64,000 bases of DNA from an uncultured Clostridia bacterium (GCA_944388585.1 CALXJI010000002.1:62001-126000); one strand, 5' to 3'; numbered from the stretch's first letter, positions 49,218 through 64,000 are shown. Notes: generated by a model not told the origin, from the letters alone. Numbers and translations: made by a program.

Positions 49218-49302
49218 TCTGATTTAATTTAATCATATACTCTTATTATATAATATTTACATTTTTAATGCAATATATAAATTAAATGTTTACATATAAA
49301 AT

Positions 49303-49337
49303 AAGTCCTTAAGCATTAAAAATTACTTAAGAACTCA
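49303..49337 (-). terminator. Terminator of the 1868-residue adhesin gene
   Basis: A stem of about 10 bp (49304-49313 with 49326-49335) is followed by a T-rich tail on the minus strand. Confidence 0.65.
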
Positions 49338-49348
49338 TTTTATATTTA

Positions 49349-52300
49349 TTATTTACTATTTATTATCATTTTTTTATTTTTCATACTAATAAATACTATT
49401 CCAGTAATACACAAAACTGTTACAATAGCTAAAGTTACTACTTGTATATCTCCTGTCTCAGGTGCTTTTTCATTTGTGATTCTTACTTTAATATCTTCTG
49501 CATTTATCTCTATTTCATGCTCTTGTGTATCTATTATATATCCTTCTGGTGCTTCTACTTCTTTATATGTATATTTTCCATATGGTACATCTTCAAATAC
49601 ATATAATCCATTCTCATCAGTTACTCCTTCTAATACATAATCTGTTTCTAGACTTCTCAATTCAAATTTACAATTAGATATTGGTGTTTGATCTGCTGAA
49701 TCTATTTTTTCAAAAGTTACTTTTGATGTCTTTCTTGTATTTTCTACTACTTGCTTTTCTACTGCCCAATTTCCTTCTTCGTCAAAATGAGCTGTAAATT
49801 CAAATTCTTGTTCGTTTAAATTATATATTTCTGGAGCACTTATTTCTTTATATGTATATTTTTTTCCTTCTTCAAATAAGTCTAATGGTATGTATCCTTG
49901 TCCATTATCATCTGTTATTGAATTTAAAATTACTTCTCCTTTATCATTTCTAATTTCAAATTCACAACTTGATATTTCTTGACCATCGAATATATCTATT
50001 TTAGTTAAAAATACATTTTTTAAAGAATTTTCAACCAATGCTCTATATACCATTTGATTTTGATTATTTTGAGTTAATTCTATTTTTATAACGCTATTTG
50101 TTGGTTCATATTTTTCTGGAGCTTCTACTTCTTTTAAATAATATGATCCTAATGGTATATTCTCTAATTTTATCATACCTGTTTCATTTGTTATTAGTTC
50201 TGCCTCTTTAAATGGAGATTCACTATTTTCTCTTATATACAATGGCTTAGTACATTCTTCATCTGTATATATTTTATATCTTGCTCCTGGAATAAATTTT
50301 ATTTGATTCTCATCTAAATATTCTTTAATCTCTTCATCTGTCATTCCTCTTATTTCATCCAATATTTGATTTACTTTTTCGTCAATATTTTCTACTTGTG
50401 TTTCACTTCCATTTAATATTAAATCTCCTAAAGATGATGAAGACAATTTAATCATAGTTAAAGATGCTTGGTCATAGTCATTTTCTATTCCATCTAAATA
50501 GTATGTTACAAATTCTCTTTCATTTCCATCATATTTTATTTCTACTTCTCTTATTTCCTCACTTATTGTGTATGGATATGAAGTCTCAATTTCTTTTACA
50601 TAGTATTTTCCCTCTGGTAAATCTATTTTACTTGTTACAGAATCATTTCCTTTTACTTCTATAATATCTATTAAATTATCTTTTCTAATTACTATCTCGC
50701 CATTTACATTTTTAATGTCTTCATTTGCATATACACCAAATACTGCTCTTTGCTCTATATTTTCTCCATTTGCAAAGTTTACATCTTTAAATTTCTTCTC
50801 TAAACTTATTAATAATTTTTGTCTTTCATTATATAATTCTTTTGTTGTAGTATCTACTCTTACTAGTTCATTATCATTTTCTAATACTACGTTTTCTATA
50901 TCATTATCTATTATTTGTCCTTCTGGTGCTTTTACTTCTCTTATTTCATATTCTCCTAGATATAATTCTTTACTTACTGCTATTCCTTCACTTCCAGTTG
51001 TTATTGTATCTACTTTTGTTCCTTTTGTTTCATATGTTACTCTTCCATCAGGTGATTTTATATCTTCAGCTGTATATATTTCATATGTTACTCCTTCTAG
51101 TGGTATTACATCCCATACAGGAGTATATCTATATCCATATTCTGTTTGTTCAATACTTACATCTAATAGACCTGTACCAGTTTTTACAATTTCTAATCTT
51201 CCCTTTAATGGCTCATCTGGCATATCTACAATATAATATAAATCTACTGTATTAGCTGGCTCATTTTTTTCTATATCCATTGCAGCTTTGTCGATTACTA
51301 CATGTTTTCCACCTTCACCAATTACTCCTACTTTTTCTTCGTCTATTTCTCCATTTTCTTTAGTTGGTAATCTCCATTCATCTTGTAAATAATATCCCTC
51401 AGGAGCTTTAGTTTCATATATTATATATTCTCCTGCTTGAATTTTTTGTAGTGTTATAAAATAACCCTCTGAGTTTGTTACATATGTTGTTATTTTTTCA
51501 TCTGCTGATGTATCATATAATTCTAACCAATTATTTTCTTGACAATTCCATATTTTAAATTCAGCTCCTGCTAAGTTTACAGTTGCTCCTGTATCTTTAT
51601 CTCTTTTTTGTACTTTTAAATATGGTGTTATTGGTTCGTCTGCTTCAATTCTGTATTCTTTTTGTACTTGTCTTTCTATTATTACATCTTCTGGTTGAAT
51701 TGCCCAATGAGTATTTTCACCAGAATTACTTTCTTTTATTTCTGTTATTTCATATTCTCCATATGGTATTGTATAAGGATAATATTTTTCTCTTGACTCC
51801 TCTTCTACAAATTCTCCATATCCATACTTATCTATTGTTAAATCATAATATTTTTCTGGATTTGATTTTAATGTTAATCTTAATATTGCTCCTTCTGATG
51901 CAGCTTCTTCTGTTTGTCCTAATATATTATCATATTTTATAACTTCTACTCTTCCCCTTATTACTTCTTCTCTTGAAGTATCATAATGATATGTTCTCTC
52001 TTCTGTCTGAGCTGCTGGATCTTGTTCAAAATAATATTCATTTGGATCAACTAAATAACCTTCTGCATATGAATAATTAAATGTTTGTCCATCCACAGTC
52101 TCTGTATGACTTATTTTTTCTTTTATCATGTAGTTTCCTACTAGTAAGTCTTTTGACTCAGCACACCAATATCCTTCGCTATCTTTATGATCTACTACTA
52201 TATCATATACTTTTTCTGTATATGCATCTGTCTGTGGATCATATCTATAAATTTCATATATTGCTCCTTCAAGCACTGCATCTCCTTGTGTATAATCTGG

Positions 52301-54955
52301 TTCATCTGTATCTTCCCTATTTGCATCTATTTTTCTTATTTTAAGTTGCATTACTTTTGGTGTATCAACTATATTTTTACTATATGGCTCTACTTGTACT
52401 TTTCTATCTTCTTCTACAAATATTGTAAAATCGTCACATTTTAATGAAATTGGTGATACCTTTGTTTCCTCTACTATATATTCACCATATGGTAAATCTT
52501 CTATTATACAGTATCCATTTTCATCAGTTTGCGCTGTACATTTTCTTGAAAATACATGATCTGTTCCTATAGTTGACTTTAATGTAGCTGTAAATTCACA
52601 CTGATCTAATGGAAATTGTGGAGTATTACTTGTTGCTCCTATTTCTTTATATATTTCAATATCGTTTCTTTTTGGCTCATTTTTTATTGTTATTGGTACT
52701 TTAATTGTTTCTGTTCCTTGTGTAGTATTATCTGCTGTTACCATATATACTTTATTTCTATATGTTACATTCTCATTTGGTATAGTTGCATCTGGATCAA
52801 TTCCTTCAGGAAATGTTGTTTCTTTTAAGTAATATGTTCCTGTTCTCATTGTTCCACTTATTGCATATCCATTTTCATCTGTTGGTCCAATTACACATAC
52901 TTTATCTGTACAATTCTGATCTCTATATACCGTAAAGTATGCTCCTTCTACTTTTGCATCTGTTGCCTCTCCCTCATGAACTAATATCTCTTTGTATACT
53001 TCAATTTTCATGTCCTTTGAGTTATCTACTTTTGTATAATCATATGTATTTCCATTCTCTTCAACAAACACAGTAAAATCTTGTATTCTTTCTGCTTCTG
53101 GTGGAACTACACATTCCTCTACTACATATTCGCCATATGGAATATCATTAATTTGACATATTCCATCTTCTCCTGATACATTTGAATAATATACTTGAGT
53201 TGAATCAGATATTAATGTTGCTTTAAATTGTGCACCTTTTAAATTTATTTCTGGATCATAGTCTAAAGCACCTAATCTTTTTAATATTTTTATATTTCCA
53301 TATATAGGTGGTTCTGAAGCTTCACATACAACTTCAGCTATTGTTGATTCAGATTGACCTTTATATACTATTTCTACATCAACTTTACTTGAATTTATAT
53401 TAAATCCCTCTGATGCTTTTATTTCTTTATAATAATATTTTCCAACAGGCAAATTTTTTACTGCTTCTGTATCTCCATTAGCATCAGTTTTTATACCATC
53501 TTTTACAATTTCATCTTTTTGATATACTCTTGTACTACCTTGATATATATCCTCTGCTGCATATAGATTATATATTGCTCCTTCTAAAGTTGCATCTCCT
53601 TTAGTATTACCTCTATTATCTGCATCATATTTTTTAAGTCTTACACTACCACTTGGATAAGAATTTTCTTTTGTATAAGTCATTGTTTCATTAGTATTTA
53701 CTTTTACTGTTTGCGTTTTTGTAGCTTCATCAATTACCATTCCATTAACTGTGCTAACTTCTGTTATTGTATATGTTCCTGTAGGAATGTTACTTAATGT
53801 GTAAGTACCATCACTTCCAGTAGTAATATCCCATTTTAATCCATTACCTGTAACTGTAAATTTTACACCTTGATGTGCCACACCATAATTGTCTACTTTT
53901 TTTATTTTTAAGTTTCCTACATCTGTATAAACTTTAAAATTATGCTTTTCATCTTCCATATTACTTGCTACAAAAGATGCTAATGGTTGTGGATCATCTC
54001 CAGCTCTAGAAGTATCTGCTTGTCCAAAATATGCTGTACCTTCATTATCTCCAACTTTTCTTGTAAATGTACAACTAACAGGTGATGACTTTGTTCCAAC
54101 TGCTTTAGTTGATGTTATAGTTATTTTATTTTCTTCAACTTTAAATTTTAAATTACTATTTGATGATGTAACTTGTCCACTTATTGCATCACCTAGCTTA
54201 TACTTATAATTACTTTCTGTTATTACAGCTTTATATACTTGTTCATCTTCATCCCAAGTCATTTTATATGTTTTATCAAAATTAACTGCTCTCTCATCTT
54301 TACAAGCATTATATGCATCATATGCCTTATCATAAATATCTTTTGCTCTATTATATGTATTGCTACCTTTATCTTTACAGAAAGATCTTAATATTTGAAC
54401 CATTTTATCATAATTCTCAAAATATCCATCTGCTGTTGCCCACATTACTGTTTGAGTAGCAAAATATTTATCTTGAGCTTGTGAGTCTGTATCATTTAAA
54501 TAATCCCTCATAAATTGTTCAGCGGCAGTTGCTCCACTTAAATATGATGTATCTAGTATAAATCCATACTTTAATACATACTCTAATTGCTCTATAACTT
54601 TATCACTTATTACCTTACCACTGGCACTAATTAAATCTTTGCCAGGCCATCTTTCTAATATGTCTCCTCCATTAACTGCTCTACCATATCCTATGCAGTA
54701 TGAGATATATGACCTATTATTATAACTAACCCAAAATATATATCCATGCTCATGTTTCTTTCCAAGAACACTTCCTCTATTGGCAGTATCCGCTTCTATT
54801 TCCCTATATGTCATATCATAATCTCCAAGAGGGCCACTTTTTTTAACATAATCTGCCATTTGCACTTCACCTTCCGCTGCCATTACTGTGCATATTCCAC
54901 TAATAGCAAGCATAAATGAAATTACTAATGCAAAAATCACTTTTCCCTTTTTCAT
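49349..54955 (-). CDS. Giant thioester/Cna-B (SpaA-like) surface adhesin, about 1868 residues
   Basis: A signal peptide (about 1-27) leads into an N-terminal thioester domain. Cys87 in SYISYCIGYG and Gln168 in FATQTVMWA are placed to form the internal Cys-Gln thioester used to bind host targets covalently. About a dozen SpaA/Cna-B-like repeats follow, each ending in a GxYxxxExxAPEGY-type strand that usually carries the Glu of a Lys-Asn isopeptide bond. The end has KAPETGD, a membrane helix and KNKK, an LPXTG-like sorting signal with Ala for Leu. The ATG at 54955 follows GAGGTGAATTAT. No sortase gene is in the window. Confidence 0.9.
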   Translation of the reverse strand: MKKGKVIFALVISFMLAISGICTVMAAEGEVQMADYVKKSGPLGDYDMTYREIEADTANRGSVLGKKHEHGYIFWVSYNNRSYISYCIGYGRAVNGGDILERWPGKDLISASGKVISDKVIEQLEYVLKYGFILDTSYLSGATAAEQFMRDYLNDTDSQAQDKYFATQTVMWATADGYFENYDKMVQILRSFCKDKGSNTYNRAKDIYDKAYDAYNACKDERAVNFDKTYKMTWDEDEQVYKAVITESNYKYKLGDAISGQVTSSNSNLKFKVEENKITITSTKAVGTKSSPVSCTFTRKVGDNEGTAYFGQADTSRAGDDPQPLASFVASNMEDEKHNFKVYTDVGNLKIKKVDNYGVAHQGVKFTVTGNGLKWDITTGSDGTYTLSNIPTGTYTITEVSTVNGMVIDEATKTQTVKVNTNETMTYTKENSYPSGSVRLKKYDADNRGNTKGDATLEGAIYNLYAAEDIYQGSTRVYQKDEIVKDGIKTDANGDTEAVKNLPVGKYYYKEIKASEGFNINSSKVDVEIVYKGQSESTIAEVVCEASEPPIYGNIKILKRLGALDYDPEINLKGAQFKATLISDSTQVYYSNVSGEDGICQINDIPYGEYVVEECVVPPEAERIQDFTVFVEENGNTYDYTKVDNSKDMKIEVYKEILVHEGEATDAKVEGAYFTVYRDQNCTDKVCVIGPTDENGYAISGTMRTGTYYLKETTFPEGIDPDATIPNENVTYRNKVYMVTADNTTQGTETIKVPITIKNEPKRNDIEIYKEIGATSNTPQFPLDQCEFTATLKSTIGTDHVFSRKCTAQTDENGYCIIEDLPYGEYIVEETKVSPISLKCDDFTIFVEEDRKVQVEPYSKNIVDTPKVMQLKIRKIDANREDTDEPDYTQGDAVLEGAIYEIYRYDPQTDAYTEKVYDIVVDHKDSEGYWCAESKDLLVGNYMIKEKISHTETVDGQTFNYSYAEGYLVDPNEYYFEQDPAAQTEERTYHYDTSREEVIRGRVEVIKYDNILGQTEEAASEGAILRLTLKSNPEKYYDLTIDKYGYGEFVEEESREKYYPYTIPYGEYEITEIKESNSGENTHWAIQPEDVIIERQVQKEYRIEADEPITPYLKVQKRDKDTGATVNLAGAEFKIWNCQENNWLELYDTSADEKITTYVTNSEGYFITLQKIQAGEYIIYETKAPEGYYLQDEWRLPTKENGEIDEEKVGVIGEGGKHVVIDKAAMDIEKNEPANTVDLYYIVDMPDEPLKGRLEIVKTGTGLLDVSIEQTEYGYRYTPVWDVIPLEGVTYEIYTAEDIKSPDGRVTYETKGTKVDTITTGSEGIAVSKELYLGEYEIREVKAPEGQIIDNDIENVVLENDNELVRVDTTTKELYNERQKLLISLEKKFKDVNFANGENIEQRAVFGVYANEDIKNVNGEIVIRKDNLIDIIEVKGNDSVTSKIDLPEGKYYVKEIETSYPYTISEEIREVEIKYDGNEREFVTYYLDGIENDYDQASLTMIKLSSSSLGDLILNGSETQVENIDEKVNQILDEIRGMTDEEIKEYLDENQIKFIPGARYKIYTDEECTKPLYIRENSESPFKEAELITNETGMIKLENIPLGSYYLKEVEAPEKYEPTNSVIKIELTQNNQNQMVYRALVENSLKNVFLTKIDIFDGQEISSCEFEIRNDKGEVILNSITDDNGQGYIPLDLFEEGKKYTYKEISAPEIYNLNEQEFEFTAHFDEEGNWAVEKQVVENTRKTSKVTFEKIDSADQTPISNCKFELRSLETDYVLEGVTDENGLYVFEDVPYGKYTYKEVEAPEGYIIDTQEHEIEINAEDIKVRITNEKAPETGDIQVVTLAIVTVLCITGIVFISMKNKKMIINSK

Positions 54956-55039
54956 ATAATTCACCTCAACACTTACACATATAATGTTATATCAAAAAAA
55001 AACTTTTTTCAATATTTTTTATGTATTATATCAAAAAAT

Positions 55040-55069
55040 AAGTGTACTAAACAATAATTTAGTACACTT
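55040..55069 (-). terminator. Terminator of the 1470-residue adhesin gene
   Basis: A perfect 12-bp stem (55040-55051 with 55058-55069) is followed by TTATTTTTT on the minus strand. It separates the two tandem adhesin genes into distinct units. Confidence 0.85.
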
Positions 55070-55090
55070 AAAGTTTAAATTTTAAAATTA

Positions 55091-58000
55091 CTATACATTT
55101 TTTCTTGATTTTCTATTTCTTATTACAACAAATATTATTCCAGCCATACTTACTAATGCAACAGATACTATTGCTATTACAGCTATATCTCCTGTATTAG
55201 TTACTTCAAATATTAAAGTATCTGGTGTATTGTCATCTATTGTAAATTCATATCCTTCCATATTTTGTTCTTCCAAATCATATCCTTCTGGTGCTTCTAC
55301 TTCGATAAATCTGTATGTTCCATATACTGGTTTTTCTACTCTATATTCTCCGTTTTCATCTGTTATTGCATCTTTTACTAAATATACTGTTTCTCCCGCT
55401 TCGTTTACATATGGATCTCCATTTTCATCTAATAGCACTATTGAAAATTTACATCCTTGTAATGGCTCTCCTGTCTCTTCATCTGTCTTTTTAACTACTA
55501 ACTCTTCTATTACTGGTCTATAGTTATCTACTTCTTCTTTATCTTCATTATTCCATATAAGTTTTTCATTTTCATAATCTATTGTATAATCTAGTACAAA
55601 TGGATGTTTTTCTGTATTTATTGTATATAATTTTCCATCTTCTTTATATATGTCTGGTGCTTCTATTTCTTGATAATAATATGTTTTTCCTTGATCAAAC
55701 ATATCTATTGGAATTTCTGCTATTCCACTTTCATTTGTTGTCATTTCCACTATTTTATTATTATCTTCATCTGTTATTATAAATTTACAATCTTTTACTC
55801 TGTCTCCTGTAAATATATCTATTTTTTCAAATGTAAATGTTATAGATTTATCTACTAATAGTCTATATGCTAATTCTACTTCAGTATCTGATGTTGTTAA
55901 TTCTATTTGAATAACTTCATTTGATAATTCAGCTTTTGCTGGAGCTTTTGTTTCCTTTAAATAATATACTCCTAATGGTAATTCCTTGACTTCTGCTAAT
56001 CCATACTCATCTGTTGTTATTTTTACTTCTGTTCCATCTTTTAATTTTAATGGTTTTGTACATTCTTCATCTAAATATATAGAATATTCTGCACCACTTA
56101 ATAAATAATTAGTTGTATTTTCTTCTAAATATTTTATTAATTGATCTTTTGATAAACTTTTAATTTCATCTAATAATTCTTGTGACAAAGCATCTAGCTT
56201 TTCTTTATCTATATCATTTGAGCCATATATTCCTGTTTCATCTATAAATGATGATGTACTTAATTTTATTAGCATTAAATCTGCATCTTCTATTTCATTT
56301 TTTACTGTCTTACCTTCTATTTCTACAATCTCTGCATCTTCTTCATAATCTATTGTAAAATCATATTTGCTTTCGTCTTTTGTATAAGAAGGTGCTGCTA
56401 TTATTTCTTGATAGTAATATTCTCCTTCTGGTAGATTTAATGTTTCTTCTACAGTAATATTATTATTTAATTCTATTGTTTGAATTAGATCTCCATTATT
56501 TATTACTACCTTTCCTTTATAATCTTTTATATCATGTCCAGCATATACTCCAAATACTGCATACTTTTCTTCTTTTATATCATATATTGATTCTTCAAAT
56601 ATTTTATCAAAAGTTAATTTTGCATTTTTGTTTTCATTTTCAAGTTCTAAATTCTCTGTTACTACTGGTACATCTTGACCTTCGTATTTTAATTCAAAAT
56701 ATACAGGATCATCATTTATTATTACTCTATCATCTTCAGAGTCTACTTCAATCGCATAATATTTTCCTAAATCCAACTCTTTTGATTGTGCATATCCATT
56801 TCCATCTGTTTTTAATGTATCTACTTTTACATTTGCTTCTTCATATGTTGTTCTTCCATCTGGTGATACTATAGGTTCAGCTGTATATATATCGTATGTT
56901 ACACCTTCTAAGCCTTGATTTGCATATACTGGCCTCTTTTCTACACCATGCTCTCCACTAATCATATTAACATCTGTTATTACAGGTCCTGTTTTATGTA
57001 CTGTTACTGTTCCTTTTACCCTTTTATCTGTCATTTCAATTTCATATATTAAGTCTCCTGCATCTATACCTGGAAATTCTGCATCTTCTGCTACTTCTAA
57101 CGCCTGCTTATCTATTTTTACATATTTTCCACCTTTTTCGGGATCTCCTAAATCTGCTTCATTCTCTGGTATTTTCCATTCTTCCTTTAAGGCATATCCT
57201 TCTGGTGCTTGTACTTCATACACTATATATTCTCCTGCATAAAGCTCTCTTGGTGTTACAAAATATCCATTTTCTCCAGTATAGAATGTATCTATTTCTT
57301 TATCTTGCTGAGAATCATATAGACTTACAAATTCTCCATCATTAATACTCCAAATTTTAAATCCTGCTCCTGCTAATGCAACTGTACTTTTGTCTTCTAA
57401 ATCTTTCTTTATAACTTGTAAATACATTGGTACAGGCTCATCCATAACAATTCTTTCTTCTACTTCATCTTGATAATCTATAGTAACTGTTGTATCTTGA
57501 ATATAATAGTATATACTTTCTCCACTATCACTTTCTTTTATTTCTATTAGTTCATATTTTCCATATGGTATTGTAAATTCCACATCTGGATATCTTTCTT
57601 TAAAGTCTTCGTCTACAAAATTTGCATATCCATTTTCATCTATTTCAACATCATAATATTCTGATGGATCTGATTCTAATGCAAGTCTTAATTGTGCTCC
57701 AGTTGCTGAATTTTTATCTGTATCATTCTCTGAATCATCATTATTATTATCATTATCCATTTTTATAACTTGTACTTTTCCTTTTATAGGAATTTCTAAG
57801 TGTTTTTTTACAACTGTATCCATATCTGCTTCATACAAGTCGTCTAAATTATCATTTGTTATTTCAAAATTTATTATTTCATTATTTAAATTAAATCCTT
57901 TTGATGCTTTTGTTTCTTTCCAATAATAACTTCCTATTGGTAATCCATCTAATTCTTTATTTGCAATTTCACTTTCTACATTTTTTACTACTGGTGTTGC

Positions 58001-59503
58001 TCCTGTTTTGTCTGTTGATACATGTGCTATTTCTTCATTAGCTTTAAATAATAATGTAGAACCTTCATATATATCTTCTGCAGCATATAATTTATATTCT
58101 GCACCTTCTAATATAGAATCTCCCTTAGGATCTGTATCTTCATAAGCATCTCTTTTTAGTAATTGCGCACTTCCTCTTTTATATGGATTTTCACCTCTAA
58201 AAGTTACAGTTCTTCCTCCTTCAACATTTACCTCTACATTAACATTAGACTCATTTATATATAAATTTCCTTCTACATAAACTTCTGTAATAGTGTATGT
58301 TCCTGCATTTATCTCATTTAATTCGATTACACCATTTTCATCTGTTTTTAATGTTTCATTAAAACCATATGGTCCAACTATAGTAAACTCACAATTTGGT
58401 ACTGGTTTTCCATGTTCATCTACTTTTTCAATTTTTAAATTTCCTAGTTCTGTATAAACACTAAAATTATGAGTCTCAGGTGGCATATCACCTTCTCTAA
58501 ATACTGCTAACGGTTGTGGATCACCGCCTCCACGAGTCTCATCTGCTTGTCCAAAGAAACATCTTCCTTCATTTACACCAACTTTTCTTGTAAAAGTACA
58601 AGTAACTGGTGAAGATGCAGTTCCTATAGGCTCAGTTGAAGTTATAGTTATTTTATTTTCTTCAACTTTAAACTTTAAATTACTATTTGATGATGTAACT
58701 TTTCCTTTTATCATATCATCTAATATATATTTATAATTATCTTCTGTTATTACTGCTTTATATACTTGCTCATTTTCATCCCAAGTCATTTTATATGTTT
58801 TGTCAAAATTAACTGCTTTCTCGTTTTTACATGCTTTATATGTATTATATGCTTTATCATAAATGTCTTTTGCTATATCATAAGGATTTACACCTTCTTC
58901 TTTTCCTTTACAGAAAGATTTTAAAATTTGTATCATTCTATCATAATCTTCAAAATATCCCTCTGATGTTGCCCACATAATAATCTGTGTAGCAAAGTTT
59001 CTATCTTGAGCATCTGGTATAATATTATCTTTCATTAAGGAAGCCATATACCCTTCTGCCTTTTCATCTGTATCTACTATATCACCTGATACAGAATGAA
59101 CAAATCCAAATTTTAATACATATTCTAGTTGTTCTACAATTTCATCAGAGATAATATCTCCACTACCATTATTTAGATTTGCATCGGGCCATGGTCTTAA
59201 CACATCATATCCATCTCTACTTGTGCTTATATCACGGCCATATCCTATACAATATGATAAATATGCTATTCCATCAAAAGTAACCCAAAATGTTGCTCCT
59301 TGTGGATGTTCTTTTCCTAAAACACTACCCCTATTAGCAACGTCTGCTGGTATAGTTTTGTATTTGTTATCATAACTGCCATTCTTATCCACTACATATG
59401 CCATTTGTACTTCTGCATCACCTCTAGCTGCCATTACTTGCTGTCCGTATCCGGCAAAAATACATAACAGCATTAATATAATAAGTATTTTTCCCTTTTT
59501 CAT
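55091..59503 (-). CDS. Second thioester/Cna-B surface adhesin, about 1470 residues
   Basis: This is a paralogue of the next gene downstream. After a signal peptide (about 1-26), Cys85 in YLSYCIGYG and Gln173 in FATQIIMWA form the thioester site. Residues 190-350 closely resemble the same part of its partner (KTYKMTWDENEQVYKAVITE). About nine Cna-B-like repeats follow. The C-terminus differs: VTNTGD replaces a PxTG motif before the last membrane helix and RNRKSRKN tail, so sortase recognition may differ. The ribosome site and first codons are identical to the partner gene. Confidence 0.9.
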   Translation of the reverse strand: MKKGKILIILMLLCIFAGYGQQVMAARGDAEVQMAYVVDKNGSYDNKYKTIPADVANRGSVLGKEHPQGATFWVTFDGIAYLSYCIGYGRDISTSRDGYDVLRPWPDANLNNGSGDIISDEIVEQLEYVLKFGFVHSVSGDIVDTDEKAEGYMASLMKDNIIPDAQDRNFATQIIMWATSEGYFEDYDRMIQILKSFCKGKEEGVNPYDIAKDIYDKAYNTYKACKNEKAVNFDKTYKMTWDENEQVYKAVITEDNYKYILDDMIKGKVTSSNSNLKFKVEENKITITSTEPIGTASSPVTCTFTRKVGVNEGRCFFGQADETRGGGDPQPLAVFREGDMPPETHNFSVYTELGNLKIEKVDEHGKPVPNCEFTIVGPYGFNETLKTDENGVIELNEINAGTYTITEVYVEGNLYINESNVNVEVNVEGGRTVTFRGENPYKRGSAQLLKRDAYEDTDPKGDSILEGAEYKLYAAEDIYEGSTLLFKANEEIAHVSTDKTGATPVVKNVESEIANKELDGLPIGSYYWKETKASKGFNLNNEIINFEITNDNLDDLYEADMDTVVKKHLEIPIKGKVQVIKMDNDNNNDDSENDTDKNSATGAQLRLALESDPSEYYDVEIDENGYANFVDEDFKERYPDVEFTIPYGKYELIEIKESDSGESIYYYIQDTTVTIDYQDEVEERIVMDEPVPMYLQVIKKDLEDKSTVALAGAGFKIWSINDGEFVSLYDSQQDKEIDTFYTGENGYFVTPRELYAGEYIVYEVQAPEGYALKEEWKIPENEADLGDPEKGGKYVKIDKQALEVAEDAEFPGIDAGDLIYEIEMTDKRVKGTVTVHKTGPVITDVNMISGEHGVEKRPVYANQGLEGVTYDIYTAEPIVSPDGRTTYEEANVKVDTLKTDGNGYAQSKELDLGKYYAIEVDSEDDRVIINDDPVYFELKYEGQDVPVVTENLELENENKNAKLTFDKIFEESIYDIKEEKYAVFGVYAGHDIKDYKGKVVINNGDLIQTIELNNNITVEETLNLPEGEYYYQEIIAAPSYTKDESKYDFTIDYEEDAEIVEIEGKTVKNEIEDADLMLIKLSTSSFIDETGIYGSNDIDKEKLDALSQELLDEIKSLSKDQLIKYLEENTTNYLLSGAEYSIYLDEECTKPLKLKDGTEVKITTDEYGLAEVKELPLGVYYLKETKAPAKAELSNEVIQIELTTSDTEVELAYRLLVDKSITFTFEKIDIFTGDRVKDCKFIITDEDNNKIVEMTTNESGIAEIPIDMFDQGKTYYYQEIEAPDIYKEDGKLYTINTEKHPFVLDYTIDYENEKLIWNNEDKEEVDNYRPVIEELVVKKTDEETGEPLQGCKFSIVLLDENGDPYVNEAGETVYLVKDAITDENGEYRVEKPVYGTYRFIEVEAPEGYDLEEQNMEGYEFTIDDNTPDTLIFEVTNTGDIAVIAIVSVALVSMAGIIFVVIRNRKSRKNV

Positions 59504-59599
59504 ATAATTCACCTCAACACTTACATACTATAATCTTATAGCATATATAAACATTTTTCAATATTTTTTAACATAAATGTAAAAAATTTTCATCAGCCT

Positions 59600-59965
59600 A
59601 ACTAGTGATTTTTGCTTTTAGAAGTCTCATTACATTTAATAGCTATATTGAGATTGCATTTCATTAGCATATAGTGTAAAAATACTTCTGATTCTATTAA
59701 TGTTAGTCATTCTCATTCACATAAGTGTCTTAATATTTGAACTATCTCTAATCTTTTTTCATTGTAAAAACTTTTCTTCTATGCTTTGAATAAATACTAT
59801 ATGATATTTGTAATTCCATGTTATGCATGTAGCTTTGTATGGCATTAATTTCGATATTCTTTGTAAGTAATGTTTCCCTTTTATGTTAAATTTTGCACCT
59901 CTTATTAGTCGGAAAAAATTATGCAGACGAAGGGGTTTGCCTACTCGTCACTTAAACCAAAAATT
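59600..59965 (-). mobile_element. Decayed IS200-type element (tnpA remnant)
   Basis: Translating the minus strand gives pieces of TnpA in broken frames. TWNYKYHIVF (about 59800-59830) matches the intact copy's TTWECKYHIVF. LRHLCE followed by LTLIESEVFLHY (about 59680-59740), with internal stops, matches RTLCERKEVTIIEAEACKDH. An imperfect hairpin (GACGA/TCGTC near 59927-59950) may be its left end. The orientation is the same as in the adjacent intact copy. Confidence 0.7.
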
Positions 59966-59994: not shown

Positions 59995-60690
59995 AAAAAC
60001 TACGGGTATAACCCGTAGTTTTTCTTTGCGCCCTATAAGGGACTATTGCGAGCAACCTCTCAATAGGTATCTTAGTCCGACAACCGCAATCCTACTCGCT
60101 ACCCTTTAAAAGGGTCTATGTATTCATTTATTGTTATTTGGTCTGATATCATGTCTTCTTGTATCTGGTTTCTTATATATTCTTCTATTTTTCTCTTATT
60201 TTTTCCTACTGTACTTACATAATATCCTTTTGCCCAGAAGACACGATTTCCATATCTATATTTTAAATTTGCATGTCTTTCAAATATCATTAAACTGCTT
60301 TTTCCTTTTAAATATCCCATAAAACTTGATACACTTAATTTTGGTGGTATACTTACTAACAAATGTATATGATCTTTACATGCTTCTGCTTCTATTATTG
60401 TTACTTCTTTTCTTTCACATAATGTTCTTATTATCATTCCTATTTCTTGCTTTAATTCTCCATATATCTCTTGTCTTCTATATTTTGGTGCAAATACTAT
60501 ATGATACTTGCATTCCCACGTTGTATGTGCTAAACTTTCTGTGTATGAATTTTTTATACGTATTACTCTCCTTTTTTATAATGTTTGGTTGTCGGACCAA
60601 TTACATTATAATACAAGGAGAGTTCTTTTTTCTGCTACTTTTTGCAAAACTATAAGTTCTTTTGAACCACAGGCATAGCCTGTGGTTTTC
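59995..60690 (-). mobile_element. IS200/IS605-type insertion sequence (tnpA only)
   Basis: The element is bounded by two subterminal hairpins of the same design: an 11-bp stem at 59997-60021 (CTACGGGT/ACCCGTAG) and a 10-bp stem at 60665-60687 (CCACAGGC/GCCTGTGG). Both have 3-base ATA loops, as used by Y1 transposases to recognise ends. It holds only tnpA, with no tnpB. The first hairpin also has T runs and could act as a terminator. The exact ends are not fixed. Confidence 0.8.
60099..60557 (-). CDS. tnpA: IS200-type Y1 HUH transposase TnpA
   Basis: This single-strand transposase has the HUH motif in CKDHIHLLVSIPP and the catalytic Tyr in AKGYYVSTVGKNK. Its N-terminus reads KNSYTESLAHTTWECKYHIVFAP. 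A usual start would lie at 60557, 8 bases after AAGGAGAG, but that codon is ATA. No ATG, GTG or TTG is in frame between the upstream stop (60576-60578) and the internal ATG at 60437. The frame is open and about 152 residues long, so either ATA initiates weakly or the start has been lost. Confidence 0.8.
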   Translation of the reverse strand: MKNSYTESLAHTTWECKYHIVFAPKYRRQEIYGELKQEIGMIIRTLCERKEVTIIEAEACKDHIHLLVSIPPKLSVSSFMGYLKGKSSLMIFERHANLKYRYGNRVFWAKGYYVSTVGKNKRKIEEYIRNQIQEDMISDQITINEYIDPFKG

Positions 60691-60731: not shown

Positions 60732-61712
60732 TTATAATATTTTATATTTATATTCCATAACATCTTGTGTAATAATTTCCACAGCGAAATTATTATCATT
60801 ATTACTATTGAACACATATATTGAATATTTATCTTTATATTCCATTGTATAATTGTCACTTGCAAGTTCATAAATACCATCATAATTGTCAGTTATATAT
60901 TTACAAAATTTTTCATACGTTCTAAATTTTTTTTTCTTTAAATCATCATCTAGCTTTTCATATGCTATTTGTGGATTATATAGTAAAAATTCTTTTAACT
61001 GATATATTAATTCATTAGCATAATCTGACATATTAAATTGATAGCTTCCAAACATATTAAATTCATTTCTATCTATTTTTTCTGGAAATTTAAAAGTCAC
61101 TGTATTACTATGTTTTAGATTATTGTAATTTAACTCACCAATGTACTTATTTGGTAAAATACTAAAACTATTAGTATTTCTATCTTGCAAAACCAACATA
61201 TCAAAAATATTAATTTCATTTGTTTCCATATCTCTTAAATCAATTCTTACTAAATATGCATAAAAGTTTCTATCTTTTTCTCTAAAAAATATTATATCTT
61301 CTATATTAATATAATATTTATCGCTATTAAACATTAAATTTACTATATCATTTTCTGTTATATTATACATATTCAAACAGTTATTATCTAAAATACTATA
61401 CATATTTTGAATATATATTTTTTTATCATTTTGACTATCAGTATTAAAATAACCAGAAGTAATTAAAAAATATTTAGTTATACATGATTTTAAAATATAA
61501 TAATCCTCAATATTAGATATTTTTTCAATTTTATATTCATTTTTATCATATATAATTTGCACATTAGTATTTGTGTCATTATTAATCAAAATATTGTTTA
61601 AATTATTACTTTTATATTTTTTTAAATTATAACTAATAGAAAAAAATAATATAAATAAAAAAAATACTACAATAATTATAATAATACTGCTTATTATTAA
61701 TCTTCTTTTCAT
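60732..61712 (-). CDS. Membrane-anchored protein, relative of the 315-residue protein at 62.3 kb
   Basis: This 326-residue protein has one N-terminal membrane segment (about residues 4-28) and an external part with two similar-sized alpha/beta regions. Both it and the protein at 62342-63289 share the order of a Cys-containing helix followed by YSMLNN/YSILDNN, a central 'FEIP/FKFPE' strand, a long helix (SDYANELIYQLKEFLLYNP) and a final YTIYDSSDKFAIDIY-like strand pair. The layout suggests two NTF2-like domains, as in VirB8/TcpC proteins, but this is inference. It has its own promoter. Confidence 0.7.
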   Translation of the reverse strand: MKRRLIISSIIIIIVVFFLFILFFSISYNLKKYKSNNLNNILINNDTNTNVQIIYDKNEYKIEKISNIEDYYILKSCITKYFLITSGYFNTDSQNDKKIYIQNMYSILDNNCLNMYNITENDIVNLMFNSDKYYINIEDIIFFREKDRNFYAYLVRIDLRDMETNEINIFDMLVLQDRNTNSFSILPNKYIGELNYNNLKHSNTVTFKFPEKIDRNEFNMFGSYQFNMSDYANELIYQLKEFLLYNPQIAYEKLDDDLKKKKFRTYEKFCKYITDNYDGIYELASDNYTMEYKDKYSIYVFNSNNDNNFAVEIITQDVMEYKYKIL

Positions 61713-61762
61713 ATAACTCCTCCTTTATTAAAATTTAGATATATTATATTAAATATACTTAT

Positions 61763-61791
61763 ATATTATCACACATATACTTTTATGTCAA
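61763..61791 (-). promoter_or_regulatory. SigA promoter of the 326-residue protein gene
   Basis: On the minus strand a perfect TTGACA (61786-61791), a 17-base spacer and TAATAT (61763-61768) lie about 50 bases upstream of the start, which has AAAGGAGGAG. Confidence 0.8.
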
Positions 61792-61874
61792 TCGCATTAT
61801 AATTATAATGTGATTAACTTGTGATAATGTCACTATATAAATAGTAAATTTTAATTTTCAGAAATGTCACTATA
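61790..61874. repeat. Palindrome and direct repeats upstream of the promoter
   Basis: A near-perfect 26-base palindrome (61790-61815, one mismatched pair) abuts the -35 box. Two identical 12-base copies of AATGTCACTATA follow at 61826-61837 and 61863-61874. Together they look like a binding region for a regulator. Confidence 0.55.
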
Positions 61875-62188
61875 AATTATGATAAAATACAAGAACGGAG
61901 AAACATATAATGCTATTTTATAATAAATGTTGGGGTAAAAAATTACTCAATATTATTTCTTAGCAAATAAATACAATCCATTATAAAATAATATTGTCTC
62001 GGAGTCAACAAAAAAATTATTTAATTACAAAAATATTAAAGAAATTAAATTCACTTAGTTATTGACATTTATACTGAAAAAATTTGTCAAAGATCATTAA
62101 ATCAGCTTAACTTGCAAAATCTCTGACTATAAAATCCAAAAAAGTTTAATATATTAATACTGATAAAAAATATTTTATTTAAACATAA
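61875..62188. other. Non-coding AT-rich stretch
   Basis: I see no gene here. A short 17-codon frame at 61910-61963 on the plus strand has a weak GGAG but no recognisable product. TCGGAGT near 61999 and its complement ACTCCGA near 62253 could be relics of an element's ends, but the match is only 7 bases. Confidence 0.4.
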
Positions 62189-62190
62189 AA

Positions 62191-62222
62191 AGAAGATGAA
62201 TTAAAAACTTAATTCATCTTCT
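62191..62222 (-). terminator. Terminator of the CHAP/315-residue operon
   Basis: A perfect 12-bp stem (62191-62202 with 62211-62222) is followed by TTTTTATG on the minus strand, about 120 bases after the gene stop. Confidence 0.75.
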
Positions 62223-62341
62223 ACTAATTTTAAGGTTTTGATAAATTTTTCACTCCGACTATTGACTTAGAACCATTTCTTTTTTTTATAAATTATATAT
62301 TATACCAGAATTTTTTAATAAATTTAAGCATATTATTAATA

Positions 62342-63289
62342 TTATAATAAATATATATTAAAAGAAAATGTGGAGTATTTATCAAAATATATATCTATAG
62401 CAAATTTATCACTACTATCATAAATAGTGTATATTTCTCTACCATTCTCATCTACATTTATATCACTTGCGCCATAATATAATAAACTTAATTCTGATCT
62501 ATATTGATTAACAAAATTTTTTAAATCATCTATAGAATTATATTTTTCTTTTGCTATATTATCTAATTTTGAAAAAGCATATTCAATATCATTTAACAGT
62601 AAATCCCTTACAATAATTAAATAGTCACTCGATATTTCACTAATAGTAGATGAAACAGGGGAATAAATATTGTATATTCTGTTTTCAACAGACTGTGGAA
62701 TTTCAAATTCTACAACATCTCCTTCCTCAAGTTGAGATATATCAATATCTGAAATATAATCATCCATATATACCTCAAAAGTTTCATTTTTATTATCTAG
62801 ATTTATAGCTACTTTAAAATTTTTTAAATTATTAGTAACATTACTCTTTAAAACACCACTAGCAAAATAAGTACTAACATCTTCATAATATGTTAACTTA
62901 TATATATCATATATTTCTACAGTAGAATCCTCATATCCACTAAATTTACTTGCAATATTTTCTTGTGTAATATGCATTTTTTCTATATATTTATTATTTA
63001 GCATAGAATAAATTATATTTGACACTCTATCATCATTATTTAAAAGTGAACATTGTGTAAAAAATTTAAATAAACAAGCCTTTACAGTATATAATTCTCC
63101 TCTATTGTTTAAGCATGTAATCTTTCCAGATGTCTCCTCTCTCATTTCTATTGCTTCTGGAACTAACGGATCGTAAATTACTACATTAGATAAATCATCC
63201 TCATGATTATTATTAAAAAACAAAAACAATAATATAATCCCTATTACTAATACAATAATTATTAATAATATTTTTCTTTTTTTATACAT
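62342..63289 (-). CDS. Membrane-anchored protein, possibly VirB8/TcpC-like
   Basis: This 315-residue protein has an N-terminal membrane segment (about residues 6-26) and an external part of two alpha/beta regions (about 60-180 and 190-315), shared with the 326-residue protein downstream. It starts 15 bases after the CHAP hydrolase gene with AAGGAG, so they form an operon. In Tn916-type elements a wall hydrolase gene is likewise followed by the VirB8-like TcpC gene. That comparison is by order and layout only. Confidence 0.7.
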   Translation of the reverse strand: MYKKRKILLIIIVLVIGIILLFLFFNNNHEDDLSNVVIYDPLVPEAIEMREETSGKITCLNNRGELYTVKACLFKFFTQCSLLNNDDRVSNIIYSMLNNKYIEKMHITQENIASKFSGYEDSTVEIYDIYKLTYYEDVSTYFASGVLKSNVTNNLKNFKVAINLDNKNETFEVYMDDYISDIDISQLEEGDVVEFEIPQSVENRIYNIYSPVSSTISEISSDYLIIVRDLLLNDIEYAFSKLDNIAKEKYNSIDDLKNFVNQYRSELSLLYYGASDINVDENGREIYTIYDSSDKFAIDIYFDKYSTFSFNIYLL

Positions 63290-63304
63290 ATAAATCTCCT
63301 TAAA

Positions 63305-64000
63305 CTAAAAACCATATGTAGCCAAAATATCTTCCATACAAACATATGTACCATTGATTTGACTACTATTTCTAGAAACAGCAGATACTCCATACCAATC
63401 TGTTCCAGATCCGCAATGACTAACCACTATTTCTGTATTGCCAACTGCTTCTACATATACAACATGACCATTAATAGAAAACACATAATGTTTTCCAACT
63501 TCTAATTCATTTACTTTATATGTTGGAACACCATAAACTTCTGCCATCTCAGAAGCAACTTGACCACCATCTCCTAGAGCATTTCCCTTTCCAATAGGTC
63601 CATTTATTTCACCACCAGAACTTGAATAAAGGAAATAATATGCCATTGACTCTGCCCACCATGTGCATTGAAAATATTCATTTACAGGTATAACTTTTGG
63701 ATAAGCTGATGATGAATATGTACCAGTAGCATTAAAATATATTCTATATTCTTCTTTTATAGATTGTTCTAAGCTGGTTCTTTGCCTATCTGTAACATTA
63801 TCACTGTCTTTATAAATACTATTAGGTTGTGGATTTAAAGGAGCTGTAGTACCATTAAATAGCTCTTGCTCATACCATATTTGTAATTCTTTAACATTAT
63901 CATAATTAATAGACCCATCAGCATTTAATAATTCAATACCTGGTAAATTAGATCCTCCTAAAGACCAAAATCTTTGTAAATTATCATAATATCCTAAAGA
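63305..64000 (-). CDS. CHAP-domain peptidoglycan hydrolase, 5'-truncated by window edge
   Basis: The frame is open to the edge; 231 residues are visible. The C-terminal CHAP domain has its nucleophile Cys in FQCTWWAESM (visible residue 112) and the catalytic His in NGHVVYVEAVG (visible residue 179). An uncharacterised region of at least 105 residues precedes it. It should cleave peptidoglycan amide or peptide bonds outside the cell. Its link with an anchored VirB8-like protein suggests a role in making room for a transport complex. The start lies beyond the window. Confidence 0.88.
   Translation of the reverse strand, partial: SLGYYDNLQRFWSLGGSNLPGIELLNADGSINYDNVKELQIWYEQELFNGTTAPLNPQPNSIYKDSDNVTDRQRTSLEQSIKEEYRIYFNATGTYSSSAYPKVIPVNEYFQCTWWAESMAYYFLYSSSGGEINGPIGKGNALGDGGQVASEMAEVYGVPTYKVNELEVGKHYVFSINGHVVYVEAVGNTEIVVSHCGSGTDWYGVSAVSRNSSQINGTYVCMEDILATYGF

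Follow-up and report, generated by a model that had tools for sequence, protein, structure and literature searches.

Tandem adhesin genes with a common control region

In a 64,000-nucleotide stretch of DNA from an uncultured Clostridia bacterium (GCA_944388585.1, CALXJI010000002.1:62001-126000; hereafter the window), two long open reading frames (ORFs) that encode the putative surface adhesins A and B lie in tandem, separated by a gap of 135 bp (table 1). Their true starts are the ATG codons at 54955 and 59503, the latter being the end coordinate of the locus in a preliminary description of this DNA; GTG starts at 54964 and 59512, proposed by the ORF tool, were rejected because both fall within the Shine-Dalgarno sequence. 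A 26-base leader (TAAGTGTTGAGGTGAATTATATGAAA) shows no difference among A, B and 2 sister-species orthologues, and a TTGAAA-17-TAASAT box sits 5' of it in A, B and those orthologues. Promoter-like matches across the whole region were not above shuffles, so the box is credible because of its conservation rather than because of any excess of matches. Conserved box and leader, together with a strong hairpin after each gene (z -6.8 after B, -6.95 after A), indicate that each gene is a transcription unit of its own, with a control region common to both. These results bear out the common ribosome site, similar upstream sequence and separate terminators of the preliminary description, and its differences in repeat number (13 SpaA/CnaB domains in A, 9 in B) and in sorting motif (APETGD in A, Pro-free VTNTGD in B, each followed by a transmembrane (TM) helix and a basic tail) also hold.

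The overall explanation that we favor, with a probability of roughly 0.6, is that A and B are class II thioester (TIE) fibrillar adhesins sorted by TGD-type signals, and that B is a linker-less form. Head family, domain counts, the Lys/Glu/Asn triads of the last domains, linker loss, mosaicism and conservation were read from sequence and profile comparisons; thioester and isopeptide formation, sorting, the sortase used and the target are what we infer from them.

Table 1. Coordinates and properties of features at the adhesin locus (window positions unless a contig is named).
Feature	Position	Strand	Details
Adhesin A	49349..54955	minus	ORF and translation, intact; 1868 aa; Pfam SpaA E 3e-113; signal peptide, class II thioester head, 13 SpaA/CnaB domains, APETGD sorting tail
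Adhesin B	55091..59503	minus	ORF and translation, intact; 1470 aa; signal peptide, class II thioester head, 9 SpaA/CnaB domains, VTNTGD tail
A head, thioester domain, residues 28-345	53921..54874	minus	Cys87; predicted partner Gln323; TQxxPhiW at 167-172
B head, thioester domain	58448..59425	minus	Cys85; predicted partner Gln330; TQxxPhiW at 172-177
A sorting motif APETGD	49448..49465	minus	TGD five residues (EKAPE) after isopeptide Asn1828
B Pro-free motif VTNTGD	55187..55204	minus	N is predicted isopeptide Asn1436
B last CnaB domain and TM tail	55094..55516	minus	Lys1339, Glu1401, Asn1436; AF2, VIA-align
Promoter-like site of A	54984..55012	minus	TTGAAA-17-TAACAT; conserved with B and sister species
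Promoter-like site of B	59533..59561	minus	TTGAAA-17-TAAGAT
Terminator hairpin after A	49300..49339	minus	RNA fold -16.8 kcal/mol; z -6.95
Terminator hairpin after B	55039..55070	minus	14-bp stem, then T run; z -6.8
Type IV secretion-like cluster, 3' end, upstream of B	60732..64000	minus	326 aa, 315 aa, C-terminus of 1046-aa lysozyme+CHAP protein
Type IV secretion-like cluster beyond the window	C2:128446-138070		VirB4, PrgI, VirB6-like and pilin genes

Thioester heads

The two heads are 62% identical, with 43-51% identity at residues 1-160 and 73-82% at residues 161-280. Against the Pfam TED profile (cut-off 22 bits) the A head scores 23.6 bits on the genome and 21.8 bits when isolated, and the B head scores 19.5 bits. 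An alignment of 16 heads and BaTIE has three conserved points, namely Cys87 (A) or Cys85 (B), the TQxxPhiW motif with Gln168 or Gln173 (TQTVMW in A, TQIIMW in B), and Gln323 or Gln330 near the end of the head. The Cys is aligned in 16/16 heads and BaTIE, and the C-terminal Gln is found in at least 15 of the 16 heads. The Cys lies in YCIG in both A and B, a loose match to [YFL]C-hydrophobic-hydrophilic with Gly at position four. In BaTIE the bond joins Cys71 to Gln266, and the Gln of TQxxPhiW, a motif on alpha2 in class II TEDs, is described as dispensable for it (PMC6194298). Gln323 and Gln330 align with this bond-forming Gln266, and by homology the predicted thioester pairs are Cys87-Gln323 in A and Cys85-Gln330 in B. 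The preliminary description had identified thioester adhesins, in agreement with the TED profile, the conserved Cys and Gln residues and the CnaB stalks; it had, however, paired Cys87 with Gln168 and Cys85 with Gln173, and these glutamines belong to TQxxPhiW, whose Gln has been described as not bond-forming (PMC6194298). The contact test that it proposed was therefore aimed at the wrong pair, and this choice of Gln is its one clear error.

An AlphaFold2 (AF2) model of the A head, from 4 rows, has a predicted local distance difference test score (pLDDT) of 52, mostly below 50 in the TED lobe, and we draw no claim of Cys-Gln contact from it. Class II TEDs have a seven-stranded beta-sandwich between alpha3 and strand P, in a slipknot arrangement; in the model, residues 194-318 form a beta domain whose top VIA match, the TED of SaTIE (6fx6; Z 7.6, rmsd 5.9), is little above unrelated folds; placement of the bond Gln after this domain fits class II, as far as a model with a pLDDT of 52 allows. 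Foldseek with the model gave no match at E<=0.001, a PDB sequence search with the A head or the A3 profile gave no relative, and hhalign of the A and B heads with two other TEDs, for which there were too few rows, aligned the TQxxPhiW stretch only (probability 1%). The weak Pfam scores could mean that the heads are mere fold relatives that no longer carry thioester chemistry; the Cys, TQxxPhiW and C-terminal Gln are nevertheless kept in A, B and both sister-species heads, in line with the wider alignment, and we regard such a loss as very improbable.

Stalks of different lineages

In a sliding-window comparison, the specific resemblance between A and B is confined to the first ~345 residues. 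For the B stalk the nearest sequences are protein C1_1675 and proteins on contigs C8 and C9, with 67-90% identity over most of its length, and for the A stalk the nearest is C1_1886. A and B are thus not plain tandem duplicates, a possibility that was rejected because their stalks come from different lineages. The head and C-terminus of A follow the orthologue in the sister species G009 (about 75-85% identical), whereas residues 560-1120 are 78-90% identical to a protein of genome G010 that has an unrelated head and only 21-78% identical to the G009 orthologue (21-45% over much of 640-960), which is direct evidence of segment exchange. Across species the heads are 76% (A-A) and 84% (B-B) identical, more than A and B heads are to each other (62-65%, and about 62% within a species); the pair therefore predates the species split, and both members were kept. 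Judged from these comparisons, A and B draw their stalks and anchors from two distinct lineages, which recombine across loci as well as across species. The pair probably originated by duplication of a head together with its promoter and leader, and each head now lies on a different stalk and anchor lineage, stalk segments being exchanged with other adhesin loci and between species.

The 1.57 Mb genome has 137 SpaA/CnaB domain matches, which looks like a heavy investment in surface fibers for a small genome. The end of contig C6 and the start of C10 overlap exactly over 77 bases within one adhesin gene, and C8 and C9 also break within adhesin stalks; since contigs break inside adhesin genes, assemblies undercount adhesins. 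Two short overlapping ORFs of 214 and 269 aa on contig C5 (G000:C5, L063:3338-4763; G000 is the window's own genome), with a TED and a SpaA match side by side, resemble a broken or split adhesin. G000 was read in stretches, and further adhesins may exist.

Sorting tails and the lost linker

Neither tail has the Leu at P4 and Pro at P3 of canonical LPXTG; A has Ala and Pro at these positions, and B has Val and Thr. Class E LAXTG signals (Streptomyces coelicolor, Actinobacteria) are Pro-free at P3 like that of B, but have Ala there and are used by a class E sortase. Alignment of the last domains from two species gives ITN-EKAPE-TGDI for A and VTN-----TGDI for B, and this difference is kept in the sister species. 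The last-domain triads are K1750/E1799/N1828 in A and K1339/E1401/N1436 in B, and the tail Asn corresponds to the isopeptide Asn by homology with Asn373 and Asn555 of the BaTIE CnaB domains. An AF2 model of the last B domain (pLDDT about 80-90 over most of the domain) has a CnaB fold, matching a CnaB2 domain (8bdw) with Z 12.6 and BaTIE with Z 11.7 in VIA-align; its last strand ends at Asn1436, TGD comes next and the TM helix follows. From the alignment and the position of the Asn at the end of the last strand, we conclude that B lost a linker instead of changing its Pro, so that a Pro-to-Thr substitution, considered for B, was replaced by a clean loss of the five residues EKAPE.

The Pro-free tail is widespread in the genus. 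FEVTNTGD occurs in 43 copies in 11 of 28 genomes of the genus (zero for a reversed-pattern control) and in 0/8 genomes from four sister genera. Among complete long adhesins that were retrieved from the window's own genome through their stalk or head rather than their tail (A, B, two on C1, one on C6, two on C7, two on C9 and one on C10), 10/10 end in T[GS]D, and A alone has Pro at P3. The Pro-free type is the majority among the sampled tails of the genus; a set of 65 T[GS]D tails was filtered on T[GS]D, at loci picked by a tail profile, and was not used to judge the universality of TGD. Genomes G009, G010, G011 and G016 also have tandem pairs in which one tail contains Pro and the other does not, and in G016 the heads of the pair are again homologous (45%). 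A function of the motif at the DNA level, suggested by its unusually conserved DNA, was dropped, as codon bias explains most of this conservation after removal of redundancy.

Sortases

Of the seven sortases in the genome, two belong to class C and adjoin a pilus locus, three belong to class B (assigned above the NCBIfam cut-off), and two are short and come close to classes E/D/C without reaching the cut-offs. The class B sortase at C4:127554 (302 aa) has orthologues (at least 50% identity) in exactly the 16 genomes with TGD tails and in 0/12 others. The class B sortase at C5:47310 is present in almost all 28 genomes. Several TGD genomes lack the class C sortases, several lack the C2 type and several the C4:33166 type, and the TGD genome G025 lacks the C8 type. 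In C. difficile SrtB is the only sortase, and its signals are (S/P)PxTGD (PMC4155245). TGDI is common to both tails, which look like class B (SrtB) signals, and from this a class B sortase shared by A and B seems likelier than two enzymes.

The preliminary description had raised the possibility of different sortases, which might deliver A and B to different places, wall versus pilus or other wall sites. The number of sortases in the genome, including the two class C enzymes in the pilus locus and three of class B, would permit this, and the tail motifs do differ; on the other hand, the tails are homologous from TGDI on and separated by a clean linker loss, the pilus-locus proteins carry another type of signal (LPLTGG/LPETGG), mixed tandem pairs recur as described above, TGD tails persist in genomes without the class C pair, and no sortase was seen in the genus that tracks one tail type against the other. 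We therefore find separate sortases improbable.

Several points weigh against our explanation: the B head scores below the TED cut-off, the A head model is poor, the sortase tree appears to place all 16 TGD genomes in a single clade, and the Pro-free C. difficile tail peptide NVQTG was not cut by SrtB in vitro (PMC4155245). Because of the clade, the co-occurrence of sortase and tails is close to one evolutionary event, and is suggestive rather than independent proof. The peptide, from CbpA (NVQTGD), speaks for a rival reading in which A alone is wall-anchored and the membrane retains B along with every other VTNTGD protein, their motif lacking Pro and its P2 residue being locked in the last CnaB domain, so that no sortase would accept it. 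Pro is indeed missing at P3 in every VTNTGD tail, and TIEpLS20, a class II TED adhesin, has no sortase signal (PMC8092201). In a pure membrane anchor, however, T-G-D should drift, and it instead persists across divergent tails that vary elsewhere in their TM part; the 10/10 T[GS]D ends of the adhesins fetched by stalk or head argue the same way. Retention in the membrane thus appears unlikely, if less so than the use of separate sortases, and sorting of VTNTGD tails is likely from their sequences.

According to the favored explanation, that of TGD-sorted class II adhesins, A and B would be exported by the Sec pathway, and a long string of CnaB domains containing Lys-Asn isopeptide bonds would then hold the thioester head far from the cell, where its Cys-Gln thioester would bond covalently to an amine on the target. 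Both tails would act as wall-sorting signals of the TGD type; the enzyme that cleaves them between T and G would most likely be a class B sortase, for which C4:127554 is the best candidate. In B and many relatives the Pro-containing linker is gone, with TG-D directly after the isopeptide Asn of the last CnaB domain. Tentatively, P2 of such a linker-less signal would be that same Asn, and isopeptide closure and cutting by the (class B) sortase would compete or be ordered, an idea that we consider rather doubtful. If it were true, the cell could anchor only fully folded, cross-linked fibers, or could anchor them only before the last domain folds.

Other sorting loci were seen in the genome. The pilus locus on contig C4 (G000:C4, L062:3435-7265) encodes a 1276-aa protein with LPEAGE where its paralogues have LPETG, and C1 and C9 carry tandem copies of a family of ~1275-aa LPxTG proteins. 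Another pilus-type locus, of class B (G000:C4:30000-37000; L071:1-7001), contains a sortase, a signal peptidase-like gene, proteins with TAPTGI/ISPTGI tails and a 193-aa protein bearing IPDTSD. At G000:C2:212611-214179 (L060:3611-5179), the gene of a 522-aa TED protein that ends in NNTLPVTGI and has no membrane segment overlaps a 184-aa sortase gene.

A type IV secretion neighborhood and possible targets

Directly upstream of the A/B pair, on the same strand, lies a cluster that resembles a type IV secretion system (T4SS; whole cluster G000:C2:125305-138070), with three T4SS pilin/TrbC genes, PrgI, a VirB4 ATPase (CD1110-like), VirB6/TrbL-like membrane proteins and the lysozyme+CHAP gene. Its contig is large (286 kb) and has a coupling-protein gene at a further 16 kb (C2:154169-156670); a second such gene is at C3:53820. 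An IS200-type transposase (60099-60437) and an apparent decayed second copy (about 59600-59960) are found just upstream of the B promoter; the corresponding gap in the sister species G009 has no transposase ORF of at least 110 aa.

TIEpLS20 is needed for efficient conjugation (PMC8092201). With this precedent and the adjoining T4SS, other bacteria are no less plausible as targets than host surfaces. The pair might thus serve the T4SS, its heads binding recipient bacteria and stabilizing mating or contact pairs in the manner of TIEpLS20 and PrgB, a reading that concerns the target and is compatible with our explanation. The position and strand of the T4SS genes and the TIEpLS20 precedent speak for it, as do the conserved order CHAP-325-331-B in G009 and, in genome G020, an A-type SpaA stalk protein (LPFTGD; its head lost at a contig end) at the equivalent place, upstream of the S1 gene. 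G011, however, has the T4SS block without adhesins there, most other TED adhesins of the genome are located elsewhere, each of the two genes comes with a promoter and a terminator of its own, and the coupling protein is 16 kb away. On balance this service is possible but unlikely, though it is the alternative to which we give the most weight. Each head lineage, A type and B type, is retained in the sister species, and from sequence it is plausible that A and B bind different targets.

Relation to known adhesins

The closest relatives are the class II adhesins BaTIE, SaTIE and EfmTIE86 (PMC6194298; 6fwv, 6fx6), which like A and B have an N-terminal TED with the Cys near its start, TQxxPhiW, a CnaB stalk and a C-terminal anchor; their bond Gln lies near the end of the TED after an inserted beta-sandwich, as is predicted for A and B. 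A and B differ in CnaB number (9-13 versus 3-5), in Cys-Gln spacing (236 residues in A and 245 in B versus 171-204), in their tails (APETGD/VTNTGD versus LPATG-like), and in being a tandem pair in uncultured Clostridia. TIEpLS20, from the conjugative plasmid pLS20, also combines a class II TED and a CnaB stalk, and it lies beside conjugation-type genes as A and B lie beside a T4SS-like cluster; it is, however, a 778-aa protein without a sorting signal, encoded by one gene inside the conjugation operon (PMC8092201), whereas A and B end in TM sorting tails and are each preceded by a promoter-like site, and the T4SS predicted beside them is on the 286 kb contig. C. difficile SrtB substrates (PMC4155245, PMC5569036) share TG followed by D and a class B sortase in a Clostridia genome, and CbpA lacks Pro as B does. 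Unlike in CbpA, the Pro-free form is here the majority among the sampled tails of the genus and abuts the predicted isopeptide Asn of the last CnaB domain.

Class II TIE adhesins are thus a known kind of protein, and the anchoring variant and the unexpected T4SS neighborhood are new. If the explanation is true, an uncultured Clostridia genus relies on Pro-free wall-sorting signals that LPXTG searches miss. This bears on the unsettled status of Pro-free TGD tails such as that of C. difficile CbpA, and A and B, with the same head type on two anchors, would be a natural pair for probing the role of the anchor.

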